A stretch of DNA of 7,712 nucleotides from Halovivax sp. (lineage in GTDB: Archaea > Halobacteriota > Halobacteria > Halobacteriales > Natrialbaceae): positions 1 through 7,712 of the forward strand of contig SLIS01000365.1 of the NCBI GenBank assembly GCA_007135505.1. The letters run 5' to 3'. The notes under the pieces were generated by a model, which was not told the DNA's origin, did not search any database, and was given only the letters and a program-made list of their open reading frames with translations. Below are positions 1 through 7,712 of the stretch, piece by piece. The position numbers were made by a program, and so were the translations under genes. Position 1 is the stretch's first letter; every line of letters starts with the position of its first letter.

Positions 1-674
1 CCCGTGTTCGGGCCCTCGTCGCCCTCGTAGGCTCGCTTGTGATCCTGGACGGCGGGTGCGGGCCGAACGGTCCCGTTGGCAACGAAGGCCTGGACGGTGA
101 ATTCCTCGCCGACGAGCCGCTCTTCGAGGACGATCCGGTCGTAGTCGGATTCGCGTATGTAGGCCTTTCCCTCCTCGGCGGTCACCTGGTCGCCGATAAC
201 CTTCACGCCCTTCCCGCCGGTGAGTCCGGCAGGCTTGATCGCCAGGTCGCCGTCGTACGCGTCGACGTACTCGCAGGCTGCCTCCATGTCCTCGAACGTC
301 TCGAAGTCAGGACAACCCGGGATATCGTGGTCGGCCATGAACCGGCGCTGGAACGCCTTGTCCGTCTCGATGCGAGCGTCCTCCCGTGTCGGTCCAAAGG
401 CGTAGATGCCGGCCCGTTCGAGGGCATCGACCAGTCCTTCGGCCAGCGGCGCCTCCGGTCCGACGACGGCGATCGTCGCGTGGATCGACTCGGCGTACTC
501 GACCACGGCCGCCGTATCGGTCGTCTCCAGCGTTTCGAACCCGGTCGCGAGCGCGGCGATACCTGGATTTCGGTTTCCCGCGCAGGCGTACAGGTCGACC
601 TCGCTGTCGGCGAGGCTACGAGCGATAGCGTGCTCGCGGCCGCCACCCCCGATCAGTAGCACGATCTCGCGCAT
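1..674 (-). CDS. purD: Phosphoribosylamine-glycine ligase (GAR synthetase), 3' end cut by window edge
   Basis: Cytosolic purine-biosynthesis enzyme that joins phosphoribosylamine and glycine, with ATP, to give glycinamide ribonucleotide. The ATG at 674-672 opens a frame that stays open to base 1, giving 224 complete codons; a full PurD is usually about 420-440 residues, so roughly the N-terminal half is present. Visible hallmarks in order are the N-terminal GGGGREHA loop (residues 9-16), AGNRNPG (32-38), VGPEAPLAEG (71-80), FGPTRE (93-98), the ATP-grasp lysine segment IKPAGLTGGKGVKV (146-159), EERLVGEEF (184-192), and at the edge GPNT, the start of the family motif GPNTGGMG. The 'GLTGGKG' form resembles archaeal PurD proteins. 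A promoter and a GAGGT ribosome-binding sequence (684-680) sit just upstream. It has its own promoter and is 159 bases from the helicase gene, so it need not belong to the repair operon. The family assignment is firm. Confidence 0.96.
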   Translation of the reverse strand, partial: MREIVLLIGGGGREHAIARSLADSEVDLYACAGNRNPGIAALATGFETLETTDTAAVVEYAESIHATIAVVGPEAPLAEGLVDALERAGIYAFGPTREDARIETDKAFQRRFMADHDIPGCPDFETFEDMEAACEYVDAYDGDLAIKPAGLTGGKGVKVIGDQVTAEEGKAYIRESDYDRIVLEERLVGEEFTVQAFVANGTVRPAPAVQDHKRAYEGDEGPNT

Positions 675-833: not shown

Positions 834-3611
834 TCACGAGTAAAACAGCGTCGGACGTCGGTCCGGAGTATCCGGTCGGTCACTCCCGTCGCTATCCATC
901 GGGGTCGAGACTGTATCCAGCAGGTGTTCGAGAACGTCGATCGCTGCCGGACCGTGCAGCGGCCGGTTGTCGTTGCCACACTGATCGTCCATGATACAGG
1001 CCGGACAACCGTCCGTCCGGCCACAGTCACAGCCGGCGATCAGCGCGCGGGCCCGCTCGGCGATCGATTCGAACTCGTCGTAGATCGCCCGCGAGAAGCC
1101 CAACCCACCCTCGACGCCATCGTAGATAAACCACCCGCTGGCGGGCGCGTCGTCTAACTCGTCGGCGCGAGAGCGGATCGTCGCCTCGGCGGCGGCGATC
1201 GAGTCGGGGGTTCGGCCACTGTCGTTCCGTCGGGTGTCGGTCTCCCGTCCGTCGGGGCGGGCCGGACCGAGGTGTGCATCGAGCGCGAGCGTCGCCAGCC
1301 CCCCGAGGTCTCGCTTGTCCACCATGAGTTCGAGCGGGGCAACGCCGATCGTCGCGTGTTCGGCTGCGTGTAGTCCGCCCGCGTAGCCGACGTGTGTGGA
1401 ATCGGCGAGTTCGCCCTCGAGTTCGGGCACGGAAACGTCGCTGTATCGCTCGACGAGCGTTCGCTCGACGTCACGAGGGATCTCGAGCCAGCAAAGCTGA
1501 GTCTCCATCGGGAGCGTCGGGAGCCCCGTCGGTACGCCCTGACGGCGCTTCTTCCCACCATCGACCATCACCTGGTCGTAGGTGCCGTAGTACGAGAGGA
1601 CCGTTCCAGTTCCGTAGTGAAGGACGAAGTCGCCGATGTCGCGGGACCGCTCGGCAGTCGCGTCGAGGACCGTCACCTCGCGATTCGTTCGCGTGTAATA
1701 CCCGACGTCCACTGGCTCGACGACGACGTGAGGCTGGGGTCGGTCGTGGACCACTTTGCAGACTTCGTACTGTCGTCCCTCGTGGAGACGGACGGCTCCT
1801 TCGTGGAAGTCCCGGAAGACCCGCTCGCGAGCGAGTGGTTCCATCTCCGGGTCGTGACGGTCGTCAACGCCGTCGGCGAGACGAACCTCGTACTCGTCGC
1901 CGGCAGTCGCGTACATCGAGACCGCCGACTGCGGTCGTGGTGGCCCCGTATACGAGACGCCCGTCTCCAGACGCCCCGAGAAGTGCCCTGTCCGGCGCCA
2001 CAGTTCGACAGCCGATTCGAGTCGCTCGCGGGTGGCGAAGCGTCCGACGTCGCCGTCGTCGAGTGCGAGTTCGTCCGCCGCGCAGCGGACGTGCGTTGCG
2101 AAGACAGCGTCGTTCTCGGTGTCGACGACGGCGTCCTCGACGTCGGATTCGGTGAGGTAAGATGGGTTCCCGACGACGTACTGGTCGAGTGTCCGATGGT
2201 CGGCGACGAGGACCGAGAGCGCACGATCGGTTCCGCGACCGGCCCGACCGACCTGCTGCCAGAACGACTGGCGCTGACCCGGATACCCGAGCTGGACGGT
2301 CGCGTCCATCGCGCCGATGTTTAACCCGAGTTCGAGCGCGTTCGTCGAGGCAACGCCGTCGAGCGACCCCGTTTTCAGGCCCTGTTCGGTCGCGTGACGT
2401 GAACTCCGGGCGTGACCGGCGTGATAGGATCGGAGCCCGTCTCCCCGGTCGGGGTCGGTGTAGTAGTTGGTTCGTCGCTTCCGGGCCGTTTCGGCGCGCT
2501 CGATCGACAGTTCCGCGAGTTTCCGCGACGGGGTGAACAGCAACGTTTGGGCCCCGTGATAGGTGAGGTGGCTGAAAACGCGCGGCGCTTCGACCGAGGC
2601 CGGGAGCCGATCCGCTCGGTCCGGTTCATCGTCGATGGCGGCCCCACTACCGTCGTCTTCCTCTCCGAATGCGTTCGATTCGTTCGACGAAGGTGGGGGT
2701 CCGCTTCTCGGCGAACGGTCGTCCGCTCGCCACTCGTCTGCGGCCCGTGGTGGATTCCACAGAACGAGGTCGCGGGGCCCACGCGGGGACCCGTCGTCGT
2801 CGACCACGGAGACCGGTTCGTCGATCAGCGCCGTCGAGTGTGCCGCCGGGTTGCCGATCGTCGCGCTCGTCAGGACGAACTGTGGATCGGCCCCGTAGTA
2901 CTCGAGGACGCGCTTCAATCGGCGAATCGTCCAGGCCACGTGCATCCCGTGGACGCCGGTATACGTGTGTGACTCGTCGATCACGACTAGCTCGCAAGCG
3001 CGATAGAATCGCGTCCAGCGGTCGTGGTCGTGGAGGTAGGTATTCACGCCCGCGAAGTTCGTGATGATCACGTCGGCCGTCTCTCGAATCGCTCGACGCG
3101 TCTCGCCGGATTCGGTGTCCCCGTCGTAGACCCGAACGGTGAGGTCGAGACCCAGTCGTTCGTACAGGTCGTTGAGTTCCCGTTCCTGATCGCGAGAGAG
3201 GGCTTTGGTCGGATACACGACGAGCCCCGTCGTGCCGGCCGTCGGCTCAGCGGCGTCCGCGAGGCCGACCGACTGGCCGTGGCCGCTACCGTTCGATTCT
3301 GCCCCGTCGAGGAAGTTGCGTGCGATCTGAACGCCGTAGACCAGCGTCTTCCCGGATGCGGTGCTCGTCGCGACGCAGACGTTCTCGCCCGCATCGAGCA
3401 CGTCGAGTGCTGTCGCCTGGTGGGAGTAGAGGTCGTGTTCGAGTGCTCCGGCGAGGGCCGGACGAAGTACGTCCCGGGAAGGGACCGTCGTCGCTGTCCG
3501 AGCCGGCACGTCGACGACGGTCGCCTCCCCGGGCTCGCCAGGATACGTCTCGACGACCCCTGCGCCGGTGATCGGGACGCCAGTTTTACCGTCCGATGAC
3601 TTCGGATCCAT
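834..3611 (-). CDS. DEAD/DEAH-box superfamily 2 helicase, Hrq1/MrfA (YprA) type, with C-terminal cysteine cluster
   Basis: Predicted 925-residue ATP-dependent DNA helicase. The first RecA lobe shows a Q-motif-like LYSHQ (61-65), Walker A TSTASGKT (82-89), YPTKALSRDQ (133-142), motif II DESH (212-215) and TSAT (248-251). The second lobe shows TLLFTPSRK (356-364), STNALELGLNIG (422-433) and the arginine-finger motif QQVGRAGRG (452-460). The C-terminal part has YDGVEGGLGFS (830-840) and five cysteines (C861, C863, C869, C872, C878) in a GCPACI...CGN context, typical of the DUF1998/MZB metal-binding domain of this family. An acidic, Ser/Pro-rich stretch (about 270-342) sits between the lobes and is probably an exposed linker. 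The ATG lies 2 bases past the stop of the upstream nuclease gene, so the two are almost certainly co-transcribed and translationally coupled. Bacterial MrfA and eukaryotic Hrq1 act in DNA crosslink repair; the same role here is inferred. The helicase family is firm, but orthology to MrfA rather than Hrq1 is less sure. Confidence 0.93.
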   Translation of the reverse strand: MDPKSSDGKTGVPITGAGVVETYPGEPGEATVVDVPARTATTVPSRDVLRPALAGALEHDLYSHQATALDVLDAGENVCVATSTASGKTLVYGVQIARNFLDGAESNGSGHGQSVGLADAAEPTAGTTGLVVYPTKALSRDQERELNDLYERLGLDLTVRVYDGDTESGETRRAIRETADVIITNFAGVNTYLHDHDRWTRFYRACELVVIDESHTYTGVHGMHVAWTIRRLKRVLEYYGADPQFVLTSATIGNPAAHSTALIDEPVSVVDDDGSPRGPRDLVLWNPPRAADEWRADDRSPRSGPPPSSNESNAFGEEDDGSGAAIDDEPDRADRLPASVEAPRVFSHLTYHGAQTLLFTPSRKLAELSIERAETARKRRTNYYTDPDRGDGLRSYHAGHARSSRHATEQGLKTGSLDGVASTNALELGLNIGAMDATVQLGYPGQRQSFWQQVGRAGRGTDRALSVLVADHRTLDQYVVGNPSYLTESDVEDAVVDTENDAVFATHVRCAADELALDDGDVGRFATRERLESAVELWRRTGHFSGRLETGVSYTGPPRPQSAVSMYATAGDEYEVRLADGVDDRHDPEMEPLARERVFRDFHEGAVRLHEGRQYEVCKVVHDRPQPHVVVEPVDVGYYTRTNREVTVLDATAERSRDIGDFVLHYGTGTVLSYYGTYDQVMVDGGKKRRQGVPTGLPTLPMETQLCWLEIPRDVERTLVERYSDVSVPELEGELADSTHVGYAGGLHAAEHATIGVAPLELMVDKRDLGGLATLALDAHLGPARPDGRETDTRRNDSGRTPDSIAAAEATIRSRADELDDAPASGWFIYDGVEGGLGFSRAIYDEFESIAERARALIAGCDCGRTDGCPACIMDDQCGNDNRPLHGPAAIDVLEHLLDTVSTPMDSDGSDRPDTPDRRPTLFYS

Positions 3612-3613
3612 TC

Positions 3614-5200
3614 TCAGAACTCACCCAGTCCGGTCTGACCGGCCGTCGTCGGTTCGGGTTTGTCCTCCGCAATCGGCGCCTCGGCGAGGTGCTCGTAGAC
3701 GGCCCACAGGGCCCGGCAATCGTCTTCGCAGTATCGCTCGTGGCGGTCCCACTCGAGCGGGTCGCCCGTTCGAATGAACCGCGAGTACGCTGTCGCCGTC
3801 GCCGCGCCGTCCAGTCCGGTGTTCGCCCCGTCGTATCCGAGAGCCGCGGCGACGTCGTCGAGTGCGTTCGTCCGACCCGGAAGCGACGCGTTGCCGTCGG
3901 TGACGGCCCAGCGATAGAGGTCTCGTTTCGGTACCGAGCGCCACTCCGTCGCGTACTGTGGCACGTATCGGCCGACGAACGCCTCCAGGTGCCGGTAGTC
4001 GAATCGCCAGCCGTTCCAGGTAAGCAACGTCCGGTCGGGGAAGCCGCCGAGAAGCCACTTGAGGAATGACTCGAGAACCCGACCGGGGTCCGACGGATCC
4101 GTTCGCTCGACGAACGCGTGGTACTCGTCGGTCGCCGGATCGTAGACACCGACCTGCCAGAGTATCGTCGGCGAGAGCCCGTCGGTCTCGATGTCCAGGC
4201 AGAGTGGCGGTTCGGCGTCGTTGCAAGCGGGGAGGGATTCCGTGCTCAGACGACGTGCGTTCCCGGTTTCGAGCACCCGAGCGTGCTGGCGCATCCGGCG
4301 TGCCCGCTTCGATCCGATACCCGGAAGTGAAGCCAGCTCGGGCGCCGACAGTTCGAGGAGGTCACGCCGACTCGACACGCCCCGTTCGGCCAGCTTCGCT
4401 GCGGTCTTCGCTCCGACCCCGTCGACGGCCCGGATGCCAAACGCGTCGGCAGCGACGGACTCGATCGATCGAATCGGCCGTGCACCCGTATCCCGGTCCG
4501 CTTCTCGATCGGGTTCGTCGGCACGATCGGGGGTGAGTTCGAGCGTGACGACGGTTCCCGCGTCACTGTAGCCGTCCACGGGTCCAATTCCACACACCCG
4601 TAGCCAGGCCCGCGACACGTCGGCCGAAGACCCGTTCCGGCAGGGACGTTCGCCTGGCTCGAACACGCCGATCACGGCCCCCGACTCGCGGTCGATCCCC
4701 CAGTACCGATCGTACGCGGCCGGAAGTCGCCCGCTAAGCACGGTCAACGTCGTCCGGTAGTCGGGGACACAGTCGACGAGCGCCGCGGCGTGATCGAGGG
4801 AGGCCTCGAGCGTCGTCCGGTCGATCGTCGTCCCGACGTCGTCGCAGACGAGGACGACCTCGTTCGGGCCGTCTGACTCGACCGTATCGCTGGTGGTACA
4901 CGCTGTGATCTCCGGTACGGCCTCGGACAGCGCCGAGGCTCGCTGGACGGTGACGATCGAAACCCGACCGAAATCGTGTCGTTGAACGGGTCCGCCCGTG
5001 GCGCCGAGGGGCGGATGGACGACCGGAACGTCGAAGAACTGGCGGACGCGAGCCGCTGCCCGGGGAACTCTGTCCGGGCCCGGAATCCAGACACCGTCCG
5101 GATCGACGTGTTCGCGGAGATCGGTGAACGTCGAGGATTCGCGCCCGGTCGTCACACTAGCCGGGAGCGCGAGTACCGTCGATCCGTCACCAGTTGCCAT
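3614..5200 (-). CDS. Helix-hairpin-helix and DEDD (RNase H-like, MrfB/YprB-type) exonuclease
   Basis: Predicted 528-residue nuclease, partner of the adjacent helicase. Residues 1 to about 235 match no domain I recognise. Residues 255-310 carry two helix-hairpin-helix units (VDGVGAKTAAKL at 259-270 and LPGIGSKRARRM at 292-303), typical non-sequence-specific DNA-binding elements. The C-terminal part is an RNase H-fold 3'-5' exonuclease-like domain: CLDIETDG (334-341, with D336 and E338), TWNGWRFD (394-401, with D401), TNALDDVA (444-451) and YCEDD (490-494, a Y-x3-D motif). This is a complete DEDD set. The same frame extends upstream to an ATG at 5356, but I chose the ATG at 5200-5198 because GGAG lies 7 bases before it and the extra 52 residues look non-coding (Lys/Arg/Ser/Cys-rich, not acidic). 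Bacterial MrfB is a DEDD exonuclease paired with MrfA, without this HhH-then-nuclease layout. Nuclease fold is well supported; substrate is inferred. Confidence 0.88.
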   Translation of the reverse strand: MATGDGSTVLALPASVTTGRESSTFTDLREHVDPDGVWIPGPDRVPRAAARVRQFFDVPVVHPPLGATGGPVQRHDFGRVSIVTVQRASALSEAVPEITACTTSDTVESDGPNEVVLVCDDVGTTIDRTTLEASLDHAAALVDCVPDYRTTLTVLSGRLPAAYDRYWGIDRESGAVIGVFEPGERPCRNGSSADVSRAWLRVCGIGPVDGYSDAGTVVTLELTPDRADEPDREADRDTGARPIRSIESVAADAFGIRAVDGVGAKTAAKLAERGVSSRRDLLELSAPELASLPGIGSKRARRMRQHARVLETGNARRLSTESLPACNDAEPPLCLDIETDGLSPTILWQVGVYDPATDEYHAFVERTDPSDPGRVLESFLKWLLGGFPDRTLLTWNGWRFDYRHLEAFVGRYVPQYATEWRSVPKRDLYRWAVTDGNASLPGRTNALDDVAAALGYDGANTGLDGAATATAYSRFIRTGDPLEWDRHERYCEDDCRALWAVYEHLAEAPIAEDKPEPTTAGQTGLGEF

Positions 5201-5207
5201 TGAGCAA

Positions 5208-5211
5208 CTCC
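5208..5211 (-). promoter_or_regulatory. Ribosome-binding site GGAG that decides the nuclease start
   Basis: On the minus strand GGAG is followed by the 7-base spacer TTGCTCA and then ATG (5200-5198). This spacing is ideal for a Shine-Dalgarno sequence. It supports the 528-residue product over the 580-residue version starting at 5356. Confidence 0.6.
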
Positions 5212-5220
5212 AGGATCGGA

Positions 5221-5240
5221 TCGGGTATGAGGGTTTTGCG
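5221..5240 (-). promoter_or_regulatory. Possible weak promoter for the nuclease-helicase operon
   Basis: The minus strand reads CGCAAAACCCTCATACCCGA. The A-run could serve as a BRE and CTCATACC as a poor TATA box, centred about 27 bases before the nuclease ATG. The match is weak. A true promoter further upstream in the divergent region is also possible, and would place the GGAG inside the leader. Confidence 0.3.
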
Positions 5241-5278
5241 TCCGCGGCGAAAGTGGTCGCGCCGACCCGCTTTGGGGG

Positions 5279-5288
5279 CGAGATCTCG
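5279..5288. repeat. Perfect 10-base palindrome CGAGATCTCG
   Basis: A perfect self-complementary decamer lies in the 227-base divergent region between the nuclease gene and thyA, about 80 bases from the nuclease start and 140 from thyA. It could be an operator for either direction or chance. Confidence 0.3.
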
Positions 5289-5357
5289 TTCGATCCGGCA
5301 CGAATGGACTTTGTCGCTCGACGGCCAAGCGAATTACATGGCTCGGGCTCTCGCACA

Positions 5358-5380
5358 CGGACGGATACGTCCGACGGACG
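5358..5380. repeat. Three alternating CGGACG/CGTCCG half-sites upstream of the thyA TATA box
   Basis: The order is CGGACG (5358-5363), GATA, CGTCCG (5368-5373), A, CGGACG (5375-5380). Each neighbouring pair forms an inverted repeat, and the nonamer CGGACGGAT is directly repeated at 5358-5366 and 5375-5383, 17 bases apart. The array ends about 10 bases before the predicted BRE of thyA. Its placement fits an activator or operator site that could serve thyA-folA and perhaps the divergent repair operon. The bound factor is unknown. Confidence 0.5.
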
Positions 5381-5389
5381 GATCGGAGT

Positions 5390-5403
5390 ATCGAAGATTT
5401 ATG
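5390..5403 (+). promoter_or_regulatory. thyA promoter (BRE/TATA)
   Basis: TCGAAG (5391-5396, BRE-like) runs into ATTTATG (5397-5403, TATA-like). The centre is about 28 bases before the thyA ATG at 5428, so transcription should start at or within a few bases of the start codon. A GGAG at 5415-5418 also precedes the ATG by 9 bases, but it would lie outside the RNA if this TATA box is the one used. Confidence 0.65.
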
Positions 5404-5427
5404 TCCCATCGGTTGGAGTGACTGTCC

Positions 5428-6444
5428 ATGGAACAGTACCTCGATCTCGTCGACTCGGTGCTCTCGGGGGGAACCTACAAACCGAATCGCACCGGCGTTG
5501 ACACCATCTCCCGGTTTAGCCGCCACTACGAGGTCGACCTGCGCAAGGGATACCCGCTCTTGACTACCAAGCGAATGGACGGCTATCGCTGGAACTCGAT
5601 GATTCACGAGGTCTGCTGGTACCTCTCCGGCGAGGAACACATTCGAACCCTCCGGGAGGAGACCAAAATCTGGGACGCGTGGGCCGACGACGAGGGCCGG
5701 CTCGACACCGCGTACGGACGGTTCTGGCGTCGATATCCGGTTCCGGCGGACCGGGCGCAGCTCGAGGGTGAATCGTGGCCAGCGGATGGCCACCAGTGGG
5801 TCACCGAGGAGGCGGACGGGCGCCGGACGTTCGATCAGCTCCAGTACGTGATCGACACCCTCTCGGACAATCCAAACTCCAGGCGACTCGTCGTCAACGC
5901 CTGGCATCCGGCCAACGCAGCCGTCTCGACGCTGCCGCCGTGTCACTACACGTTCGTCTTCAACGTCCAGGGCGACCGGCTCAACTGTCACCTCACCCAG
6001 CGGTCGGGCGACGTCGCACTCGGCGTCCCGTTCAACATCGCCGCGTACGCGTTGCTTACGATCGTCGTGGCCGGACAAACCGGCTACGAGCCGGGTCACT
6101 TCGGCCACACGGTGGTCGACGCCCACGTCTACTGTGGAACGGGCGATCGCGGCGCGTGGTACGCTGAGAACCTCGATGCCCTCCAGTCTCGGCTCGCCGA
6201 CGTCCAACGTCCCGGCGACTACCGAGCGGTACGAGAGTGGCTCGAGGGCGCGGCACCGCCTGAGCCAGACGGTGAGGAGACGATGGACCACGTTCCCGGG
6301 CTGCTCGAACAGTGCGCTCGGGAACCGCTCTCGCGACCGTCGCTCGAGGTGGCCGACGTTCCGATCGACGAACTCACCGCGGCGGACGTGACTCTCACGG
6401 ACTACGAGTCCCACGAAGGACTGCAATTCGGGGTCGCGGAGTGA
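5428..6444 (+). CDS. thyA: Thymidylate synthase (ThyA type)
   Basis: Cytosolic enzyme converting dUMP and methylenetetrahydrofolate to dTMP and dihydrofolate. The 338-residue product shows the full ThyA active site: R21 in the phosphate-binding loop near the N terminus, E61 in HEVCWYLSGEE, R152-R153, the nucleophile C172 in PPCHYTF, QRSGD (191-195) and N203 in GVPFNIA, and D231, H233 and Y235 in DAHVY. It is longer than the 264-residue E. coli enzyme because of an insertion at about residues 106-133, after RFWRRYP, and an acidic insertion at about 260-305. The C terminus ends GVAE. It is the first gene of a two-gene operon with DHFR, which recycles the dihydrofolate it makes. The ATG was chosen because it follows the promoter at the right distance and begins the conserved MEQYLDLV. 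No flavin-dependent ThyX features are present. Identity is firm. Confidence 0.97.
   Translation: MEQYLDLVDSVLSGGTYKPNRTGVDTISRFSRHYEVDLRKGYPLLTTKRMDGYRWNSMIHEVCWYLSGEEHIRTLREETKIWDAWADDEGRLDTAYGRFWRRYPVPADRAQLEGESWPADGHQWVTEEADGRRTFDQLQYVIDTLSDNPNSRRLVVNAWHPANAAVSTLPPCHYTFVFNVQGDRLNCHLTQRSGDVALGVPFNIAAYALLTIVVAGQTGYEPGHFGHTVVDAHVYCGTGDRGAWYAENLDALQSRLADVQRPGDYRAVREWLEGAAPPEPDGEETMDHVPGLLEQCAREPLSRPSLEVADVPIDELTAADVTLTDYESHEGLQFGVAE
6438..6441 (+). promoter_or_regulatory. Ribosome-binding site for DHFR inside the thyA 3' end
   Basis: GGAG covers the last sense codon of thyA and the base before its TGA stop. It sits 5 bases before the DHFR ATG at 6447. It supports that ATG over upstream in-frame starts such as 6312, which would overlap thyA by 133 bases. 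Confidence 0.65.
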
Positions 6445-6446
6445 CG

Positions 6447-7016
6447 ATGACGGGCGTCGATTCCCAGCAGAACGATGCCGTGACACGAGCGCTCGAAACC
6501 GACCTTGAGCTCGTCGGCATCGTCGCGGTCGCCCGAAACCGCGTCATCGGCGTCGACGGTGAGATGCCCTGGCACATCCCCGAAGACCTCGCTCATTTCA
6601 AACGACTGACGACAGGCCACCCAGTCATCATGGGCCGGGTCACCTACGAGGGGATCGTCGAGGGGCTGGGCGAACCGCTGCCGGAGCGGACGTCCATCGT
6701 ACTCACCTCGCGTGAGCTAGAGACCCCCGAGAACGTGATCGTCGTACCGGGCATCCGAGAAGCGATCCAGGCGAGCGAGCGCGCCGCGAGGGAACGACAC
6801 GATGGGACCGACCGGGTCTTCGTGGCCGGTGGAGCGTCGATTTACGAACAATTTCTGCCCGCTCTCGATCGACTCGTCCGCACCGAGGTCGACTCCGAGC
6901 CGGACGGCGATACCCACTTTCCCGAGATCGAACGGGACCGGTGGCGGGAGGTCGACCGCGACGAGCGCGAGCAGGTCACCTTTCTCGAGCTGGAGCGGAT
7001 CCCCGACGAAGACTGA
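6447..7016 (+). CDS. folA: Dihydrofolate reductase (haloarchaeal HdrA-like)
   Basis: NADPH-dependent enzyme reducing dihydrofolate to tetrahydrofolate, needed because ThyA oxidises its folate cofactor. The 189-residue product has the family motifs in order: GIVAVARNRVIG (24-35), GEMPW (38-42), the catalytic acid D47 in PEDLAHFKR, PVIMGRVTYE (59-68, cofactor-binding), SIVLTSR (83-89), VFVAGGASIYEQFLP (124-138) and a C-terminal THFPEI...W segment (156-166). The start at 6447 lies 2 bases after the thyA stop and has a well-placed GGAG. This leaves about 20 residues before the core fold, which the family does not normally need. A GTG at 6480 would give a shorter form but lacks clear support. The protein is strongly acidic, as in haloarchaea. 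In Haloferax the comparable gene is called hdrA and lies next to a thymidylate synthase gene. Identity is firm; the exact start is less certain. Confidence 0.95.
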   Translation: MTGVDSQQNDAVTRALETDLELVGIVAVARNRVIGVDGEMPWHIPEDLAHFKRLTTGHPVIMGRVTYEGIVEGLGEPLPERTSIVLTSRELETPENVIVVPGIREAIQASERAARERHDGTDRVFVAGGASIYEQFLPALDRLVRTEVDSEPDGDTHFPEIERDRWREVDRDEREQVTFLELERIPDED

Positions 7017-7139: not shown

Positions 7140-7712
7140 ATGGACCCGTTCGAGGGCGAAATAACGGCTGCGTCGATCGAGTACGAGCCGGTCAGCGTCA
7201 AGGACGTCCTCGTCGAGATGAAAGACACCGCCGAGTTGTTGATCGACCTCTCGTACTCGGCCGTGTTGCACCAGAACCACGACCTCGCACGGGAAGTACT
7301 TCGCCTTGAAGAGCGGATGGACCTCCTCGAACTTCGCGCCCGGATGAGCCTCCTCATGGCAGCGCGGAATCCGGACGATGCAGAGCAGCTGGCGCCCGTG
7401 CTTGGAATCGTCGCAGCGACGGACCAGATTAGCGACGCCGCGGGAGACATCGCGAAGGTCCTCCTCGAGGACGTCGGCCTCCCGGAAGCGATGCGAACGG
7501 CCCTCCCGGAAGCCGTCGAGTCACTCGTTCGCGTCGTCGTCACCGCCGACTCGCCCTACGCGAATCGGACGCTCGTCGACATCGACCTCGAGTCGGAAAC
7601 GGGCGTTCGCGTCATCGCGCTCCGGCGAGGGACCGAGTGGATTCTCAATCCCGGCCCGGAAACCGCCATCGAGCCCGACGACGTCGCGCTCCTTCGGGGA
7701 GCCGAGACGGAC
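7140..7712 (+). CDS. PhoU and TrkA-C (RCK_C) domain regulatory protein, 3' end cut by window edge
   Basis: The ATG at 7140 opens a frame with no stop to the window end (191 codons), so the gene is partial. Residues about 15-130 look like a helical PhoU-type domain, with amphipathic segments such as VKDVLVEMKDTAELLIDLSY (20-39) and a second repeat around AATDQISDAAGDIAKVLLED (92-111). From about 131 the pattern changes to a TrkA C-terminal domain: RVVVTADSPYANRTLVDID (131-149), GVRVIALRRG (155-164), then an acidic loop and DDVALLRG (180-187). TrkA-C domains bind small ligands and gate or regulate ion transporters and channels. This fusion is, to my knowledge, seen in haloarchaea as a cytosolic regulator of cation transport. 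No membrane segment is visible in this part. The transported ion and partner cannot be read from this window. Leaderless start is supported by the promoter spacing. Confidence 0.8.
   Translation, partial: MDPFEGEITAASIEYEPVSVKDVLVEMKDTAELLIDLSYSAVLHQNHDLAREVLRLEERMDLLELRARMSLLMAARNPDDAEQLAPVLGIVAATDQISDAAGDIAKVLLEDVGLPEAMRTALPEAVESLVRVVVTADSPYANRTLVDIDLESETGVRVIALRRGTEWILNPGPETAIEPDDVALLRGAETD

Follow-up and report, generated by a model that had tools for sequence, protein, structure and literature searches.

The window, that is, the whole stretch of 7,712 nucleotides that was analysed, carries two closely spaced genes on the minus strand, to which all gene and domain coordinates given here refer. 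The first encodes a DEDD-type exonuclease of 528 amino acids (3614..5200, read from ATG 5200, with the frame remaining open upstream to a GTG at 5356), and the second a YprA/MrfA-family SF2 helicase of 925 amino acids (834..3611, likewise read from an ATG). Their junction reads ...GGT GAG TTC TGA GA ATG GAT..., and therefore the stop of the nuclease and the start of the helicase lie 2 bases apart, in agreement with an earlier note on this DNA, which had described a helicase and an exonuclease encoded back to back. A divergent intergenic region (5201..5427, no strand assigned) separates the nuclease from thyA. Of the 45 pair loci, 27 likewise have thyA upstream, and in every one of these it is encoded on the opposite strand. 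A sigma-70 promoter scan was run on the stretch, with a model that is uninformative for an archaeon.

The helicase contains both RecA domains of the SF2 core, with a DEAD match of 88 bits (PF00270; RecA1, residues 63-253, 2853..3425, including GKT and the DESH box) and a Helicase_C match of 41 bits (PF00271; RecA2, residues 350-459, 2235..2564). The motifs GKT, DE[SC]H, and GR[AS]GR are invariant in the helicase alignment (A2). Between the two domains lies a variable acidic segment of about 50 residues (290-339, 2595..2744), which is nearly missing from other lineages, where the alignment consists mainly of gaps. The DUF1998-type C-terminus with its cysteine cluster, which the earlier note had recognized, is supported by a match of 57.7 bits to the MrfA Zn-binding domain (MZB/DUF1998, PF09369, cut-off 24.2; residues 822-873, 993..1148), in which C861, C863, C869, and C872 are invariant (26/26 in A2), with C878 following shortly beyond. 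Extra Zn-binding CxxC modules beyond this C-terminal cluster, as found in the defence-branch YprA systems (DISARM, Druantia, ARMADA, and BRIGADE), are lacking in A2, where only C206 and C861-C878 are invariant. These systems also carry a BrxA-like domain behind RecA1, a position taken in the window helicase by the variable segment of about 50 residues. The protein ends with the peptide RRPTLFYS (residues 918-925, 837..860), and RRPxLFY[SA] is present in all 11 helicases of the thyA-locus lineage, including the one from the window, and in 0 of the 15 others.

Among solved structures, the best relative of the helicase is YprA/MrfA of Bacillus subtilis (6znp), with 321 bits compared to 63 bits for the runner-up and with aligned segments spanning residues 48-289, 340-713, and 827-875; the family profile scores 497.5 for MrfA and 96 for the next structure. 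YprA/MrfA helicases further have winged-helix, OB, and connector domains, for which the aligned segments were considered together with a WHD_HRQ1 match of 18.6 bits, under the cut-off of 27; any placement relative to Hrq1 by this profile score is tentative. By these scores, the helicase is a member of the YprA/MrfA family.

In the nuclease, the exonuclease domain occupies residues 333-507 (3680..4204) and matches RNase_H_2 (PF13482) with 98 bits at 333-505. For the assessment of conserved residues, an alignment (A1) was built from 68 of 119 listed homologues (279 found) and 16 locus proteins, all of which were chosen before their tails were inspected. The DEDD core predicted in the earlier note (D336, E338, D401, and D494) is present in 85/85 aligned nucleases, and so is Tyr490, four residues ahead of Asp494, where the His of DEDDh enzymes is absent; H487 is found in 76/85, but is located seven residues ahead of the last Asp. 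The domain is thus of the DEDDy type. It is preceded by a helix-hairpin-helix (HhH) DNA-binding segment (residues 253-312, 4265..4444), with a match of 44.8 bits to HHH_5 (PF14520) at 259-308, and the Pfam scan of the nuclease revealed no TPR match at E 0.1.

The N-terminal domain (residues 1-251, 4448..5200) is predicted to adopt a calcineurin-like metallophosphoesterase fold, an assignment drawn from the predicted structure and from a family of helicase-less cousins described below. Sequence searches yielded no support for this fold in the window domain, neither in Pfam across 39 members nor in a profile search of the PDB. Three alignments of haloarchaeal phosphoesterases were also compared by hhalign, likewise with no result, and a helicase-alignment control scored equally low. 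Metallophosphoesterases bind their metals through the motifs D.H, GD, GNHD, H, and GH.H. Not a single invariant D, H, or N is present in the aligned N-terminal domains, and the GHCH of a cousin faces GIGP in a BLAST alignment; the remaining motifs align only weakly. The domain has presumably lost its phosphoesterase activity. In Foldseek, Pol alpha B-subunits were matched weakly (E 0.01-0.05); the B-subunits of eukaryotic replicative polymerases are inactive, and a dead metallophosphoesterase domain would recall them. A RecB-like nature of the N-terminal domain was also considered: the TM0106 RecB-like nucleases (TIGR03491) have the HhH segment and RNase_H_2 in their C-terminal half in common with the window nuclease (61.3 bits at 256-505, below the cut-off of 97.45 bits), but only profile positions 214-462 are matched and the N-terminal half is not, so this candidate was rejected.

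What is new about this nuclease is its last residues, QTGLGEF. In the predicted structure, the last helix stops at residue 507 of 528, and a variable linker of low confidence follows (residues 508-521, 3638..3679; pLDDT 68 in the penultimate block and 49 in the final one), in which the sequences diverge before the protein closes with the PIP-box-like motif (residues 522-528, 3617..3637). QxxLxx[FW] ends 85/85 aligned nucleases, with D or E at the sixth place in 83/85, and a loose form of the motif was matched by 1 of 1353 other ORFs. The pattern is that of a PIP box, QxxhxxA at a flexible end (pLDDT 49 in the last block), and FEN1 of six pair-type genomes ends with the similar Q[TAS]GLDRWT (6/6). 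Among 28 further pairs inspected, of which at least L072, L083, and L131 duplicate proteins already in A1, 3 end with QGTLGD[V/I/A]Y, in which the aromatic residue is displaced by one; the 38-locus tail list leaves out L007 (internal stop) and L013 (disrupted). The tail is absent from four distinct helicase-less cousins, which are 94-96% identical to one another and therefore in effect represent one control. The PIP consensus given for Hfx. volcanii in the consulted part of PMC7776575 is QxxLxxFx, and a C-terminal PIP motif is a feature that the window nuclease has in common with the archaeal PCNA-binding proteins NreA and NucS. PIP-like motifs can be functionless; the tail probably ties the nuclease to PCNA, the ring-shaped clamp of DNA replication and repair.

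Judged from sequence comparison, the nuclease and helicase genes form a real unit. Strong matches to the nuclease and strong matches to the helicase occur in the identical 153 of 391 sampled genomes of the class. Six genomes with weak nuclease matches (E 1e-33 to 1e-36) are excluded from this number; three of them, together with a second match in G051, were inspected and proved to be helicase-less cousins, the other three genomes being G260, G277, and G334. At E 1e-150, the helicase profile matches 315/391 genomes in two tiers, of which only the upper one corresponds to the pair (weakest pair helicase, E 1.2e-198 in G364; strongest solitary helicase, E 2.8e-175), and because of these two tiers the broad helicase matches by themselves were rejected as evidence of co-occurrence. 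For 141 of 150 listed helicases, a nuclease gene of the same orientation lies no more than 1 kb upstream, and partner gaps of 1.35 kb in one genome and 0.38-0.58 kb in three were recorded. Furthermore, a search that started from the helicase alone yielded 47 loci, and in 45 of them the nuclease lies immediately upstream in this order and on this strand, which argues against a chance pairing; the remaining two (L046 and L047) are helicase remnants without nuclease. The gene-neighbourhood survey thus revealed an adjacency that is conserved and tight across haloarchaea, contrary to the non-conserved adjacency that would have refuted the earlier note, and the reversed order pointed out in that note, with the nuclease first, is the rule in the haloarchaeal pair family. 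In 33/45 pair loci, the helicase could start at a position between -4 and +3 bases relative to the stop codon of the nuclease, and the distances of the two partners correlate (Mantel r 0.976 for 41 pairs, with 0/2000 permutations as high). The nuclease is disrupted in 2/45 pair loci (L007 and L013), the nuclease of one plasmid pair is broken, and two Natrinema genomes indicate joint loss, retaining a helicase remnant and no nuclease. A phylum-wide draw of 392 genomes resulted in 33 matches, 32 of them in genomes already in the class draw and one partial (G591, E 6.5e-21); therefore, this draw contained no full-length relative outside the class.

The earlier note had compared the pair to bacterial MrfA-MrfB, described there as a pathway independent of UvrABC. 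The bacterial proteins are a helicase and an exonuclease acting in mitomycin C repair (PMC11194089, consulted in part). The comparison holds for the helicase and for the general arrangement, a YprA-family helicase with MZB beside a DEDD exonuclease in adjacent genes; for the nuclease it is not supported. According to the same partial source, MrfB is a DEDDh enzyme with a C-terminal TPR and with His258/Asp262 (PMC11194089), and relative to this published description, the window nuclease differs by its DEDDy site, its HhH segment, its phosphoesterase-like N-terminal domain, its PIP-like tail, and the position of its gene. MrfB is missing from the 21 PDB matches of the nuclease (phmmer), in a PDB set that may itself lack MrfB, and from the best 60 of 156 PDB matches of the nuclease family profile; the matches from both searches are mostly HhH proteins. 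Going by the published description, the two nucleases share the exonuclease fold only. In B. subtilis, the helicase gene mrfA comes first and the nuclease gene mrfB second. A plain MrfA-MrfB orthologue of bacterial origin, in which the tail and the extra domain would be incidental, would fit the placement of the helicase within the MrfA family and the RNase_H_2 match of the nuclease, a Pfam family to which YprB presumably belongs as well. The DEDDy site, the HhH segment, the lack of a TPR match, and the reversed order oppose this reading, the tail is kept in 85/85 nucleases next to a variable linker, and the helicase-less cousins point to a different origin of the nuclease, so that we regard such orthology as very improbable.

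These cousins, plasmid nucleases of the loci L075, L118, L119, and L121 (L120 and L075 are apparently one gene and were counted once), have the same order of metallophosphoesterase, HhH, and RNase_H_2 domains as the window nuclease, and their HhH and exonuclease parts are homologous to it (hhalign probability 99.5%). In contrast to the window nuclease, they keep the metallophosphoesterase motifs SDWR, GDD, GNDD, THTP, and GHCH, and they lack a helicase match in the stretches examined. Because the architecture is common to both, it suggests that the pair nuclease derives from this helicase-less group. Solitary helicases also exist in haloarchaea. Five of these (L065-L069) are 32-35% identical to the window helicase, have no nuclease relative within 1.5 kb, and share DEAD, Helicase_C, and MZB (four of five scanned); one of them, L066, is nearer to Bacillus MrfA than the window helicase (429 vs 321 bits). 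With at most 8 candidates scored per genome, a solitary MrfA was found in 7/42 pair genomes compared to 59/74 genomes without the pair. This count excludes the Natrinema remnant in G005 and treats G051, whose only solo-type helicase is plasmid-borne, as lacking a solitary MrfA (including it gives 8/42), and the scarcity tracks clades.

Taken together, we favor, with somewhat more confidence than doubt, a PCNA-tethered unit in which the helicase would unwind damaged DNA and a 3'-5' exonuclease would trim the affected strand. An MrfA-type motor would move on single-stranded DNA and strip away the lesion-bearing strand, the DEDDy exonuclease would degrade this strand or a 3' end exposed by the motor, and the HhH segment would hold the DNA. 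The metallophosphoesterase-like domain, devoid of metal ligands, may serve as a scaffold or partner-binding surface, the helicase and the nuclease may form a complex, and the QxxLxxF tag on its flexible linker would anchor the nuclease to PCNA. Since the tag is proposed to hook the nuclease to PCNA, trimming could take place within reach of the polymerase and ligase that are bound to the clamp and can fill the resulting gap; crosslinks or other bulky lesions, as envisaged in the earlier note, may be among the substrates.

The same PCNA tether could serve a fork- or Okazaki-processing unit, not specific to lesions and indifferent to crosslinks, whose substrates would be 3' flaps, R-loops, or nascent strands that have stalled. 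We consider this unlikely, given that the pair is dispensable, with no strong match in 238/391 genomes and loss in the two Natrinema genomes, and therefore not part of core replication; the gene neighbourhood counts as weak evidence. A further reading is an anti-virus or anti-plasmid system in which helicase and nuclease destroy invading or replicating foreign DNA. YprA-family helicases work in DISARM, Dpd, Druantia, and ARMADA, and YprA relatives are described as central to defence in the consulted part of PMC12458937. One plasmid lineage of the pair adjoins, in varying combinations, a second helicase of the MrfA type, a PLD nuclease, and a ThiF/E1 protein with scores to the E1-E2 models of PADLOC, and 7/13 plasmid pairs inspected are surrounded by genes that resemble repair or defence clusters, which counts against the repair reading. 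However, the window helicase reaches 321 bits to MrfA, whereas its best PADLOC score is 107 bits, and no PADLOC model is matched by the nuclease; in addition, 27/45 pair loci occupy one thyA-adjacent site, and no relative was found in viral contigs. A defence role thus appears even less likely than one at the replication fork.

Returning to the PCNA-tethered repair unit, its history can be sketched only tentatively, and we lean slightly against the complete scenario being correct: a distinct haloarchaeal excision machine, combining an MrfA-type motor with a DEDDy exonuclease fused to a dead metallophosphoesterase domain and anchored to PCNA by its last seven residues, might have arisen from a helicase-free phosphoesterase-exonuclease through loss of the metal ligands, addition of the tag, and pairing with a helicase, and might have replaced the ancestral solitary MrfA in Natrialbaceae.

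Related archaeal proteins place this proposal in context. NreA, which serves as a precedent, has a C-terminal PIP motif, its deletion renders Hfx. volcanii sensitive to mitomycin C, and it acts with UvrABC rather than apart from it (PMC7776575, consulted in part), and NucS has a RecB-like nuclease domain (PMC4929162, consulted in part); in the parts of these sources consulted, no helicase partner gene is described for either, unlike for the pair nuclease (PMC7776575; PMC4929162). The pair is thus present in roughly 40% of the haloarchaeal genomes sampled (153/391), including that of the model strain Halobacterium salinarum R1, where it is located on plasmid pHS3 (OE_RS12870/OE_RS12865). Because the nuclease carries the probable clamp tag at its own C-terminus, its recruitment is directly testable. 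The pair would add a PCNA-linked archaeal factor alongside NreA, NucS, and Hef, and would provide a repair-type case within a helicase family that in archaea is better known for defence systems.

The nuclease gene (3614–5200, minus strand) and the helicase gene (834–3611, minus strand) lie back to back in the window, as proposed in the earlier note, with the helicase start 2 bases past the nuclease stop. They are flanked by purD (3–674, minus strand), which is cut by the window edge, and by thyA (5428–6444) and folA (6447–7016), both divergent to the nuclease gene, after which a PhoU/TrkA_C gene starts at 7140. Of the 45 pair loci, 27 share this divergent thyA beside the nuclease gene, and folA is next to thyA where the contig permits (window 5201–7016).

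The order of nuclease first and helicase second, read initially from this single sequence, recurs widely. A helicase search yielded 47 loci, 45 of which carry a same-strand nuclease gene directly upstream, and in 33 of these 45 a possible helicase start lies within −4 to +3 bases of the nuclease's stop codon. Strong nuclease matches were found in 153 of 391 sampled genomes of the class, and strong helicase matches in the identical 153. Among the 150 helicase matches listed, 141 have a listed nuclease on the same strand within 1 kb upstream, and the neighbourhood survey across haloarchaea called for in the earlier note thus finds the adjacency conserved. Of the other 9 helicases, 4 (G019, G042, G053, G054) adjoin a nuclease by coordinates, 3 (L133, L134, L135) have one −4 to 123 bases away, 1 (L122) is separated from its nuclease by 1.35 kb, and 1 (L132) has a broken partner nuclease. 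Likewise, 9 of the 150 nuclease matches listed are without a listed helicase; 7 of these loci (L125–L131) were opened and contain a helicase at −4 to 75 bases, the other 2 being L122 and one in genome G379 that was left unopened. Moreover, tree distances of the two partners correlate (r 0.976, n = 41; 0 of 2000 permutations as high). The nuclease–helicase pair is real and conserved.

In the helicase, the Pfam domains DEAD, Helicase_C, and MZB (MrfA Zn-binding) all score above cut-off, and in the C-terminal cysteine cluster C861, C863, C869, C872, and C878 are invariant in all 26 aligned pair helicases. Its top solved relative is Bacillus subtilis YprA/MrfA (321 bits; runner-up 63 bits), which also leads in a search of solved structures with a profile of the 26 pair helicases (497.5 bits; runner-up 96 bits), whereas PADLOC defence-system models reach at most 107 bits. 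Because of these scores, and in the sense of the two-branch YprA family tree described in the accessible text of PMC12458937, the helicase would belong to the repair-type side of the family. The likeness to MrfA–MrfB extends to the helicase and to the overall logic; the nuclease is its own kind. Among the helicase C-termini compared (window 837–860, the 26-helicase alignment, L071, L073–L083), those of the thyA lineage read RRPxLFY[SA], and most of those of the plasmid-island lineage read RPPASIS or similar, a second conserved terminal peptide in the pair.

In Natrinema pallidum and N. gari (L046, L047), thyA and purD are kept, the helicase persists only as C-terminal remnants of 281 and 69 residues, and the thyA–purD site is devoid of the nuclease. 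Elsewhere in both genomes, the nuclease profile returned HhH-type matches only, and no intact pair helicase was found. These loci represent a natural deletion in which both genes disappeared together, and the pair can thus be dispensed with. Solitary MrfA-type helicases are widespread in haloarchaea. Among 116 genomes, with no more than 8 candidates scored in each and some matches partial, such a match was found in 59 of 74 pair-less genomes versus 7 of 42 pair genomes (p = 2.6e-11, overstated, as genomes share ancestry), and this scarcity suggests that the solitary MrfA was replaced in pair genomes. Five solitary helicases (L065–L069) share 32–35% identity with the window helicase, and the 1.5 kb around each contains no nuclease relative; L066, the one scored against Bacillus MrfA, is nearer to it (429 bits) than the window helicase is.

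Furthermore, 47 plasmid records match the nuclease. Of 14 opened, 13 contain the pair, including Halobacterium salinarum R1 pHS3, and 1 (L075) a helicase-less cousin. Seven of the 13 plasmid pairs (L073, L074, L077–L081) lie in a recurrent cluster with varying combinations of a PLD-family nuclease, a ThiF/E1 protein, small unknown genes, and, upstream of the pair, a second helicase, identified in L078 as a MrfA of the solo type. A role in defence or in repair is possible for this plasmid lineage and its gene island; UvrD/PD-(D/E)XK, Piwi, or Mre11/SMC genes occur as single-case neighbours. On pHS3, the pair is followed by a second small RNase_H_2/PolB-exo-like protein, OE_RS12860 (L070:13369–14013), and L075 has, close to its cousin gene, one that matches OE_RS12860 in product name and length. 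The cousins (MPE-HhH-exonuclease proteins; L075, L118, L119, L121) are 94–96% identical across different haloarchaeal replicons, and such identity points to recent transfer between replicons.

The window nuclease ends in TTAGQTGLGEF. QxxLxx[FW] closes all 85 aligned nucleases, with 0 to 2 residues following it and with D or E in sixth place in 83, while the preceding linker varies in sequence. The motif is also present in 38/38 intact nucleases of the helicase-based loci, a set partly overlapping the 85. In 28 pair loci opened afterwards, QxxL is found in all; 25 have F, W, or Y at the expected position, and in 3 the aromatic is shifted one place later. A loose PIP pattern ends 45 of 1397 ORFs (at least 150 aa, real or not; 47 loci), of which 43 have the length and strand of the nuclease, 1 is a nuclease fragment (L013), and 1 is unrelated. 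The four distinct, mutually near-identical cousins end directly past the exonuclease domain. The majority C-terminus SLGDFA, common to four haloarchaeal Mre11-like proteins (L108, L109, L113, L117), resembles the nuclease tail minus its Gln.

The PIP box of FEN1 sits at the C-terminus, which reads Q[TAS]GLDRWT in 6/6 genomes checked. In their accessible text, PMC7776575 and PMC4929162, the latter a review of PIP binding, name FEN1 among the archaeal proteins that partner PCNA and carry a PIP box, and the former gives QxxLxxFx as the H. volcanii consensus. Neither pair nor tail was described in the literature found on MrfA/MrfB, YprA/YprB, haloarchaeal DUF1998, PIP motifs, and mitomycin, in which subscription journals are thinly covered, and none was found joining YprA, PCNA, and archaea. 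The main text of the YprA preprint (PMC12458937) is without the words PCNA, haloarchae, or phosphoesterase, though its supplementary tables may list these helicases. The PIP-like tail of the nuclease is the lead worth testing.
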